Assembly: GCF_905475395.1 (NCBI RefSeq)
Contig: NC_058337.1
Span: 87,476,368 to 87,540,367, forward strand
DNA from: Chrysoperla carnea
Lineage: Eukaryota > Arthropoda > Insecta > Neuroptera > Chrysopidae
Direction of reading: 5' to 3'
DNA length: 64,000 nt
In this document: one piece after another, positions 50,081-58,490 of the stretch
Layout of the letters: each line of letters opens with the position of its first letter
Position numbering within the stretch: position 1 is the first letter of the stretch
Translations under genes and position numbers: made by a program
Notes under the pieces: model-generated
Seen by the model: the letters and a program-made list of their open reading frames with translations, nothing else
Told to the model about the DNA's origin: nothing
Databases searched by the model: none

Positions 50081-50673
50081 ATGACAGTTTCGAAAACATC
50101 TAATAAACGTAACAAATGGGCGTTAGAATTTTTCCAACGGTACGTTTATTGATTTAACTTACATTACCGTCTTTTATATTACTTATGTATTTATTGAATT
50201 TTAGAAATAAGGATCGAAGTTCGTTCAATGAATTAAGTTCACCACCAGGCTATAGTACAGCTGCAAGTTTAGCGCATAGTGAAGTATCAAAAGACTCGGA
50301 TCCAAATCATTTAATCATAAAAAAATCATGGGATCTTGCATTAGGACCACTGAAGCAAGTTCCAATGAACTTATTCATTATGTACATGGCTGGAAATTCA
50401 ATTTCTATCTTTCCAATGATGATGGTTGGTATGTTATTTGTGCGCCCGTTGAAAGCTCTTTTTACCACTCAGGCAACATTTAAAATGGTCGAAGTTGGAA
50501 GCGCTGCTGGTCAAAAATTAGTGTATATATTGGGGAACATTGTAAATATTGGTTTAGCGTTGTATAAATGTCAGAGTATGGGATTATTGCCTACACATGC
50601 TAGTGATTGGCTTGCATTTATTGAGCCACAAACAAGAATGGAATATTCTGGAGGTGGATTTACATTATTATAA
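50081..50673 (+). CDS. EMC4: ER membrane protein complex subunit 4
   Basis: EMC4 is a membrane subunit of the ER membrane complex, which inserts tail-anchored and multi-pass proteins. Exons 50081-50139 and 50205-50673 join in phase (FFQR|NKD) to 175 residues (human 183). The start [18 protein letters not shown] is short, basic and soluble. PPGYS follows and then the conserved core [20 protein letters not shown]. Hydrophobic segments are at about 80-105 ([19 protein letters not shown]) and 127-145 ([20 protein letters not shown]). The C-terminus is [12 protein letters not shown], a typical EMC4 end. It converges with the STMP1-like gene 95 bases downstream. AATAAA lies at 50729-50734. Confidence 0.95.
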
Positions 50674-50728
50674 GTGTTTTTTTTTTACATAAATCAATTG
50701 TTTTATTTAATTTTTATGTACATCTCTA

Positions 50729-50741
50729 AATAAATTTTATT
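50729..50741. terminator. Back-to-back polyadenylation hexamers for EMC4 and STMP1
   Basis: AATAAATTTTATT contains AATAAA on the plus strand (50729-50734, 55 bases past the EMC4 stop) and AATAAA on the minus strand (50736-50741, about 28 bases past the STMP1 stop). Each hexamer is placed to serve one of the two convergent genes, so their transcripts should overlap slightly. Confidence 0.6.
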
Positions 50742-50768
50742 TAAATTTCATTGGTTTCATTGTGCAAT

Positions 50769-52857
50769 TCATTCCCTCTTCTTTTTATTTTGTTCTAAAA
50801 ATTCGGTGAACTTCTCCCATAACTTCTGTGGATCATCCACTGGCGGTACCTGAAAACAATATTAATCAATCAAACGATTTAAACTATACTTAGCTGTAAG
50901 GGTCATGTCTTACTTTTGTCCTTTAACTTCACATTAATATCGCGAGTATTTAGGAACGTTAGACCCTAACCAGTGCAAAAATTAAAATTATTGCAAATAA
51001 AAAGTTCTAATCTCCGTCCTCCTTTTTTGATTTACAGTTACCATTAAGTATTTCACACATAACATCGTAAAATAAATCCAAAGGTCTTTTAACCTCGTAA
51101 TTAATCTAATAGGAAATTTTATAACAGAATTTAATCAAATATTTCATAATAAAGTGAATGGATTTTATATTTAGACGCTAGTACTCCTGAGTTTTTAGCT
51201 TAAGTATTAAAGCTAAGCTAAATTATTATTACACTGTAATCTTCCAAAATGTGTGAAAGGCAATGATAGGGGTCGAAATAACTTCTATTGGGTAAAAAAT
51301 AGTTAACTTATTGGAAATAATAGCTTACAAAGGATATAATTTTGCTTTGGTATCTAATAAATGACAATCATAAATCAAATTATCCTATAACGCAACAATC
51401 AAGGGCGTAGTCAGCAATTCAGTCGGGGAGGAGGGACAGGATGGAATAGAAAATTTAGAGTTGCAAAACTTAAATGGTTTTATAATTGAAAAAAATACAC
51501 TCGAATCCGCACTTCTTGGATTCATGTCAAGCGCCCTACCAAATTTTTATTTTTATTAAATTTTTTCGAATCCTTAGCGGGCAGCTTTGCCTTCCTGCCC
51601 TCTCCCTTTTTGACGTCCTTGGGAGCAATATAATTCCATACAATAGAGTTCATTTTTATTTATAGATTTTCTTATAAAAGCGATTGAAGTTTCTTGAACT
51701 TAAATTAATTTGTGATATGAAATATCGTAATAACAATTTGACTTCGATCATTCGCAAATCGAAGTCTAATAAGAGGAATGGAGAATTTAAAATCATAGAT
51801 GATATCGTTTTTGTTTTGAATATGTAAATTTTTCCTTAAAACGACGGAACATTAGTATTAAAATATGACGTCATGATTAACTTCAACTAGAATATTAGCT
51901 CCAAAATACACTTCAGAAACCATTGATAAATACCAATTTCGACCCTGAATCTAAAGTAAAATTAATCTACCTATTAATGTTGTGTTCATTGATTAATTTC
52001 ATTATAAAAGGTCTAAAATATTTTTCTTTTGAATAGGGAATTCTAAATAAAATTAGAATGGATGTCCGTTTTTGTTACTATAACAAAAAGGATAATAATA
52101 GAATAACAAAGCTAAAAAATTTTTTGTCCAACACTCAATTTAATAGTATTCGTCATGCGACAAACTTAAAAAGTCAATTTTCGTTAACATCTTGTTTTTT
52201 ATCGGACAAAACGATGTTATCTTCTCTTATTATTCATTAATTTTAAGCAGCTAATGGAGATTAAATACGTTGAAGTATTCCATTTCATAACTGTATTAAA
52301 CTTACGTTATGGAGATCGTAATGGAGATACTGCGTCCAATTTCTTTCAGTTTTTTAAACAATTAAATACTTACATTATAAGTTTGTTGAATATAAACACC
52401 AGTATAAACCCCTGCACCAAAAATCACCTTTAAAAGAAACAATACATCAAATATTAAGATAAATCAAATTACTTTCCGATTCACAATCTTATCTATCTAA
52501 AGACTTCAAACGTTTATGCTTACAACAATCATTATATGTTCCCATTTTGGAATGAAGCTATTTATCAATAACGATAGTTGTATTTTTCAATTTACTTTGT
52601 AAAATAACAAATTTTAAACAAATATTTTAAATTCGTTATTTAATACATACATTTGAATTAGTAAAAAATGTATTTTTAAATTCTCCCTTAACCTAAAACT
52701 TTTTTCAAAAATTTAAAAATCATGTATTACAAAATTAAATTTTTTCGTTTTTAAATAAAATCGTTATAAGATACTTGAAATGAACTGCCCAATTTTTAAT
52801 TTTAAGATCCATATTTCAGGATTATTACTAAAAAAGACTTACCAGTGCTTTCAACAT
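50769..52857 (-). CDS. STMP1: STMP1/Sloth-like mitochondrial microprotein, 49 residues
   Basis: Three tiny coding exons on the minus strand: 52857-52843 (MLKAL), 52427-52374 (VIFGAGVYTGVYIQQTYN) and 50849-50769 (VPPVDDPQKLWEKFTEFLEQ then NKKKRE). All junctions are phase 0 with GTAAGT-type donors. The layout matches human STMP1 (47 residues): Met-Leu, one hydrophobic segment with small residues (G-x-Y-x-G-x-Y), Q-x-Y-x-x-P, an amphipathic helix with KL-x-E, and a lysine-rich tail. STMP1 and its fly relatives Sloth1/Sloth2 are inner-mitochondrial-membrane peptides supporting respiratory complex III. Unlike the fly locus, where two such peptides share one transcript, I see only one here. The family match was made by eye; the gene structure is clean. 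Confidence 0.85.
50850..52373. other. STMP1-like gene intron 2 with an element remnant
   Basis: This 1.5 kb intron is ten times the length of the coding sequence. It contains the element at 51399-51622. The plus-strand frame at 52058-52240 has no family resemblance. Confidence 0.55.
51399..51622. repeat. Small element with AAGGGCGT / GACGTCCTT ends
   Basis: TCAAGGGCGTAGTCAGC at the left and TTTTTGACGTCCTTGGGAG at the right form a short imperfect inverted pair. Just inside are GGGGAGGAGGGACAGG (left) and CTTCCTGCCCTCTCCC (right), also roughly complementary. The left end resembles that at 13901. Confidence 0.5.
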
Positions 52858-56300: not shown

Positions 56301-58490
56301 CTCAGACATGCCAACATAACTTTTGATCGGGCCACGTTGGCAACACTGCGATTAAGATTTAAGAGACAACTCTTTCCGAAGATAATAAGAAACGATAATA
56401 ATCGAAATTATGGTAGTGATTACATGTTTATTGTTATGATTGAATAATAAGTATCAACAATGTAAATTAGAATATGTAAACTGCAGTATATAGGGTGCGA
56501 TGTCTTTTAGATCGTTTTTATAGTGCATAAATTATAATAAATTTTTCCATAGAATCCCAGTTTTCGTAATAGCCTTGGTCTTATTGTAATGTATATCAAA
56601 TTTTAAGGATTTATCGTCCCACATTTTTGCCGTTTCGGGCTTGTGCCCGGTTCGCCTTTCCCGGAATCGAACGCAAATAATAACTCAACGGTTTCAAATT
56701 TTAAATATTACGCAAATTTTGATAATTTGATAAATGTAGTTTATTTGCTTTCAATATTTGTTATTTTAAACATTTTCAATATTTTCCAACATTACCTACT
56801 AGAGCGGGTATTGATTCATTTCGTCCATCGAGAATTGATAACTGCATTTTTGTCACTTGAAAACAACTTTAGAGTTCCGAGTGACGAAATAGTCTCTAGT
56901 TCAAAAACGAACCAAAATATGCCTCACCCAATATGTATATAAATTATCCATTCCAATTAATAAATCACAAAGTACTTAGATTATTAAACAAATATGTATT
57001 TTTTGTGATATAAATTACAATGGTAGCTACTTGTGACTATATAACCAAGACAGCTATGAGGGAGGAAAACCACAAATTTTCTTCCAAAAACATGGAGTCA
57101 GCATGCAATTTGTAATCAGTAACTAATAAAATTTCCTGATTAGGATTTATAAAGCCAAAATATTATTTTTTAGCTGCAGTATTTTCGGGGGTAAAATGGG
57201 GATTTATTTCCCCTTATCTTTCTTAGGAAAGTGGTATGCCTGAAGGGAAAGTTTTGAGATTAAAAGAATATCCAGTTAGTATTGAACTAAATCTGGTGGA
57301 ATTTATGAGAAACATATAAATATCGATTTCATTTCTATGCAAATTTTTCCAACTCTTCGATTTGAGATGATTAGAATTAAATAGCGGTTATACAAACACA
57401 ATATAGATATTATAAAGTTTCATTACCAATCTGTCGTCCATTCATTAAAGTCAATACAAAAGCGAGGTAAGTATTTAGAGCATTTTTTTGAGCATATATT
57501 ATACTGTTTTGTATGTCAATTACAACACACACATATAGCATCAACTAAACTATACAATAATCATTACAAGTTGACTATAACAATTGACTTTACTCAATTA
57601 TTCTGTTGTTGAATACCATGTGTAATCAATCAATCAATCTTACTAGGCACAACGAAACTCTAAAACTGAACATAATGCAGTTTGAGAATTCTTAATTTTG
57701 GGGTCCCTTATTATTGCAGACCTGAAAATAGGAGATAAGATACATTTAGAATTGAGGAAAGCTTTAAAGTGCAGGTCGTAATGACTCACGAGAGCGGAAT
57801 ATTTTAAGATAAAATTTTTTCGTTAGAGTCAATGAAGTTTTAGGAAACCTCTGCCACCAAGTTGCAATTTGCAAAATGGTGTAGTTACGATCACAACCTC
57901 GGAGAGAGGGGGTTGGGAAGGTATGTTACAAATAAAAAGTTCAATGATATACCTAGCCGAAAGATATGCTGCCAAAAAACAACTTATACACCTTATATAA
58001 AGTGAACTCCTGGTCTATGTTTATACCGATTGTTCTATCAATTAAAAAGACATGAAAATGATCATCGGCTTTGAGAATTGTTTCCTGGAAAACTATTAAC
58101 TTAAAAGAAGTCTCAGAACATTTTTTGTGTACTTTGACCTAAAAACTTTGAAAATATTTTTAGTGGATAAACAAATGTGTGTCTGGATTTAATAAAGAAT
58201 ATATACTAGGTACTTAGTTTAAAAAATACAATGTATTAAAAAACTCCATCCAAATATTTTGGCTAGGCTCAAGACTGAATATACACAATACCAAAGTTGA
58301 ATATTCAATATTTGGAGAAGAATGTCAATCTTGAGGTTTCACCCCCGAAAAATAAATGCAAACAAAAACATATACTATGTGAAAAGCAAAATCAAATAAA
58401 AAGAAGTTTTCATTTAGAACGCGTGCGGAACATAAAAAATTGGGCTTTTCTCTCCAGATAAACCTTACTTAAAAAAAAAAAAGTTTATTG
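56301..58490. other. Gene-free stretch
   Basis: The plus-strand open frame at 56643-56942 (99 residues, one hydrophobic segment) has no recognised relatives or splice context and is left uncalled. An ATCA microsatellite lies at about 57627-57640. Nothing else supported. Confidence 0.4.

Follow-up and report, generated by a model that had tools for sequence, protein, structure and literature searches.

Predicted gene structure at the locus

Three short coding exons lie on the minus strand next to the gene EMC4 in the 64,000-nt stretch of Chrysoperla carnea DNA that was analysed (the window, whose numbering is used here), and together they make up a predicted gene referred to below as STMP1; it covers 87,527,136-87,529,224 of FR997754.1. 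Coding exon 1 (52843..52857, 15 nt) begins with an ATG, encodes MLKAL and ends at a phase-0 GTAAGT donor; an in-frame stop codon is present immediately upstream of the ATG. Coding exon 2 (52374..52427, 54 nt) encodes VIFGAGVYTGVYIQQTYN, which carries the hydrophobic segment, and coding exon 3 (50769..50849, 81 nt including the TGA stop) encodes VPPVDDPQKLWEKFTEFLEQNKKKRE. Each of the three exons occurs only once on the minus strand of the window, and when joined they translate to 49 residues followed by a stop (MLKALVIFGAGVYTGVYIQQTYNVPPVDDPQKLWEKFTEFLEQNKKKRE). The peptide begins directly at its hydrophobic segment without a long N-terminal extension; among 15-residue windows, the hydropathy peak is at residues 4–18 (mean 1.82). 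The C-terminus is lysine-rich (...EQNKKKRE), which is a feature of STMP1.

The two putative introns are phase 0 and are placed after codons 5 and 23. Intron 1 (52428..52842, minus strand, 415 bp; GTAAGT...AAAG) and intron 2 (50850..52373, minus strand, 1524 bp; GTAAGT...TTTTCAG) are predicted to be spliced at acceptors that read ...TTTTAAAG and ...TTGTTTTCAG, with ends AAAG and CAG, respectively. Both donors are GTAAGT and account for two of the four copies of this hexamer in 3,001 bases of the minus strand; under a dinucleotide model, the probability of AAGT following a GT is approximately 0.005 per GT.

The 3' coding part of EMC4 is an open frame on the plus strand (50158..50673) that matches PF06417 with an E-value of 7.9e-46. 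EMC4 and STMP1 are convergent, with 95 bp (50674-50768) between their stop codons. Two AATAAA poly(A) signals of STMP1, identified as matches to the consensus (50702..50741, minus strand; first bases 50741 and 50707), begin 27 and 61 bases downstream of its stop codon, and an AATAAA is present on the EMC4 strand at 50729. Because AATAAA motifs of both strands are located inside the 95-bp gap, the 3' ends of EMC4 and STMP1 probably overlap. The original prediction had placed three phase-0 exons of 15, 54, and 81 bases, encoding 49 residues, in the 3' flank of EMC4; the exact positions, the translation, and the identity of the neighbour bear this out.

An mRNA of 539 nt was modelled from an assumed 300-nt 5' leader, the three exons, and a tail extending to 50680. 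The longest other ATG-started open reading frame in this modelled transcript is only 24 residues, and the STMP1 gene therefore looks monocistronic.

Family assignment and copies in the genome

Compared with Pfam, the spliced 49-residue peptide scored 43.1 bits (E = 3.4e-11) against family PF15054 (DUF4535), whose curated cut-off is 28.3 bits, and the match spans 44 of the 45 profile positions. PF15054 was the sole Pfam family matched by the peptide at E up to 1, and there was no NCBIfam match at the same limit. Exons 1 and 2 together scored 21.3 bits against PF15054, exons 2 and 3 together scored 42.2 bits, and exon 3 alone gave no match. None of four shuffles of the whole peptide and none of three shuffles of exons 1 and 2 matched the family, and in all three shuffles of exon 3 the score dropped to 16.7–18.9 bits, the match that was left consisting only of the exon 1 and 2 stretch. 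The partial-exon scores and the shuffles give good support to exons 2 and 3, neither of which can be spared, and the match of the three-exon peptide is not due to chance. A search of solved structures by sequence returned five weak matches, all of them to unrelated chains, of which the best (E = 0.0068) was to Crooked neck-like protein.

The human STMP1 sequence used for comparison scored 39.6 bits against PF15054 (E = 4.2e-10) at profile positions 2–45, the positions that the lacewing peptide also covers, so PF15054 does hold STMP1. In an ungapped comparison, 10 of the first 25 residues of the lacewing peptide are identical to this human STMP1 sequence (M1, L2, L5, F8, G11, G15, Y17, Q20, Y22, and P25). 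The local score between the two is 56, a value reached by none of 5000 shuffles, the highest of which scored 53. PMC13303939 reports STMP1 across land plants and metazoans and describes it as a factor in complex III assembly. Given this reported distribution and the PF15054 match, the locus is most likely an ordinary lacewing STMP1 ortholog, and the STMP1 identity claimed at the outset is upheld by the score above the curated cut-off, the match of human STMP1 to the family, and the STMP1 layout of the peptide.

Exon 1 is the weakest and least certain exon of the model, contributing just 0.9 bit to the PF15054 score. Its support rests on the splice consensus, the ML start, and the comparison with the human STMP1 sequence. 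Between 60 bases above exon 2 and position 58000, it is the sole phase-0 candidate with a GTRAGT donor and an ATG within 40 codons; a laxer GTRAG donor gives four candidates over the same range.

Copies of the gene were sought in the 559-Mb genome. A six-frame PF15054 search scored 14 candidates, and exon 2 tops the 10 that were listed, with 24.6 bits (E = 0.014), a lone-exon score that falls below the cut-off of 28.3. None of the 10 listed matches passes that cut-off, and the runner-up contains a stop. A genome search for paralogs of the peptide found none, as both scored candidates were the STMP1 locus itself. At the sensitivity used, no second STMP1 copy was found.

A weak PF15054-like stretch, YLAQTYKIPSISKNLE, which is YLAQTYKIPSI-like, was recorded on chromosome 4 (C4; 56645146-56645223, minus strand; 18.7 bits, E = 1.0). 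No hydrophobic segment was seen beside it, and as a second STMP1 it is probably a chance match.

The locus might instead be a decayed or unexpressed STMP1 copy. We consider this improbable, because the open frame, the two GTAAGT donors, the acceptors, and the poly(A) signals are all intact and no other convincing copy was found in the genome that could serve as the working one.

Distinction from STREMI and from the Sloth peptides

STREMI is the product of the SLC35A4 uORF. The conserved uORF carries PF15054 (PMC4383229), and in its C-terminal part STREMI resembles STMP1 (PMC13303939), two points that would suit a reading of the lacewing locus as a relative of this vertebrate product. However, STREMI homologs are reported in vertebrates alone, as described in PMC13303939, the lacewing open reading frame starts at the hydrophobic segment and has no N-terminal extension, and the adjoining gene, 95 bp off, is EMC4 on the opposite strand. 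A relationship of this kind is thus very unlikely.

The genome was also searched with PF15114 and PF14990, which we take to be the families of Sloth1/SMIM4 and Sloth2/C12orf73, respectively. PF15114 gave six matches at E up to 1, one of them strong, one just above the cut-off, and four below; the strong match is on the minus strand of C4 (16305664-16305810, E = 9.6e-23). PF14990 gave a single match, also on the minus strand of C4 (16305027-16305158, E = 1.9e-18). At this place lies a bicistronic Sloth1/Sloth2 pair (C4:16303527-16306658, minus strand, positions 1456-2293 therein). The Sloth1 counterpart has 76 residues and is encoded by two exons with a 429-bp intron (GTAAGT...CAG); one base separates its TAA stop from the ATG of the 58-residue Sloth2 counterpart, whereas the Drosophila proteins have 79 and 61 residues and a five-base gap (PMC9681215). 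When compared with Pfam, the Sloth1 counterpart matched PF15114 (1.2e-34) and the Sloth2 counterpart matched PF14990 (1.6e-21); neither matched PF15054. The stretch YYLDKWPGKRTLG in the Sloth1 counterpart is similar to RRLLDSWPGKKRFGC, which PMC9681215 gives as the epitope of the Sloth1 antibody, and the identification of the pair follows from family, gene order, and size together with this epitope-like stretch. On C2, a PF15114 match of 27.5 bits against a cut-off of 27 (80306296-80306448, minus strand) has three stops inside; it is not convincing as a Sloth1 copy and is possibly a decayed Sloth1-like sequence, possibly a chance match.

The 49-residue STMP1 peptide matched neither PF15114 nor PF14990 at E up to 1. 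Of the description of the locus as STMP1/Sloth-like, the STMP1 part is therefore retained on the strength of PF15054, and the Sloth part is dropped, as the Sloth1 and Sloth2 families are PF15114 and PF14990. The original prediction had further suggested that the locus may show the single-gene state of the Drosophila two-peptide transcript, and this is refuted because the lacewing has kept both Sloth genes as a bicistronic pair elsewhere in its genome. Despite a similar size, a single hydrophobic segment, and the complex III role reported for both the Sloth and STMP1 groups (PMC9681215, PMC13303939), the least credible of the readings is one that takes the locus for a complex III peptide of the Sloth1/Sloth2 type whose single-gene state is either ancestral or derived, given the differing Pfam families and the intact pair on C4 of the same genome. 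STMP1 and bicistronic Sloth1/Sloth2 coexist in one insect, and for that reason STMP1 and Sloth peptides should be kept as separate groups. The Drosophila orthologs of SMIM4 and C12orf73 are Sloth1 and Sloth2, respectively (PMC9681215), and the name STMP1 has no occurrence in the main text of that paper.

Proposed role and comparison with known systems

Taking the evidence as a whole, we give a probability of roughly 85% to the reading of the locus as a monocistronic three-exon ortholog of STMP1 (mitolamban, Mm47; PF15054) encoding a 49-residue membrane microprotein with an inner-membrane, complex III mechanism. Judged by its sequence, the N-terminal hydrophobic segment (approximately residues 4–18, with G11xxxG15) would be imported without a cleaved presequence; as in its relatives, it would be inserted in the inner mitochondrial membrane. 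The inserted segment may pack against respiratory complex III during assembly, and the predicted Q-x-Y-x-x-P turn and charged C-terminal helix would sit at the membrane surface. By analogy with its relatives, the gene is expected to be spliced and expressed, and its product probably spans the inner membrane once and aids complex III assembly. Association of STMP1 with the inner membrane and complex III is summarised in PMC12190854. The function of STMP1 is disputed, with the outer membrane, the intermembrane space, and the inner membrane all proposed as locations and with roles in fission and complex IV (PMC12455275).

The lacewing finding is real and ordinary; STMP1 is already known from plants and animals, and the finding raises no new biological question. 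What it supplies is an insect STMP1 gene model, of a kind that small-exon annotation could easily miss. The available part of PMC12455275 contains no insect STMP1, and a literature search found no paper combining STMP1, Drosophila, and insect. The C. carnea assembly inChrCarn1.1 has an NCBI RefSeq annotation (PMC10116181). We suggest, tentatively and with considerable doubt, that STMP1 is lacking from the public annotation of the lacewing, that the micro-exon layout (a 15-nt first coding exon, with codons 5 and 23 each followed by a phase-0 intron) comes from the insect-vertebrate ancestor, and that insects have a standing set of complex III microproteins made up of STMP1 and the two Sloth peptides.

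Among known systems, Sloth1 (SMIM4) and Sloth2 (C12orf73/BRAWNIN) are likewise small mitochondrial peptides that cross the membrane once and have been linked to complex III (PMC9681215), but they differ from lacewing STMP1 in belonging to other Pfam families and in being bicistronic and located on C4. STREMI (SLC35A4-MP) is a uORF product of 102-103 residues (PMC4383229, PMC12190854), in contrast to the 49 residues of the lacewing peptide. STMP1 itself is the closest in likeness. The pattern G-x3-G-x-Y-x2-Q-x-Y-x2-P is common to the lacewing peptide and the human STMP1 sequence compared with it, and STMP1 features are also seen in the short N-terminus, the N-terminal hydrophobic segment, the lysine-rich tail, and the very early first intron. 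In the alignment with this human sequence, the lacewing peptide is longer by three residues ahead of the KL-x-E helix, and its 49 residues compare with 47 in the mouse (PMC9932084). In the mouse STMP1 knock-out, GFP was joined at residue 7 and took the place of the whole of exon 3 and the greater part of exon 2, a description that gives the mouse gene three exons or more (PMC9932084). The design agrees with an intron before codon 7 and fits, but does not prove, a first intron shared between the mouse and lacewing genes.
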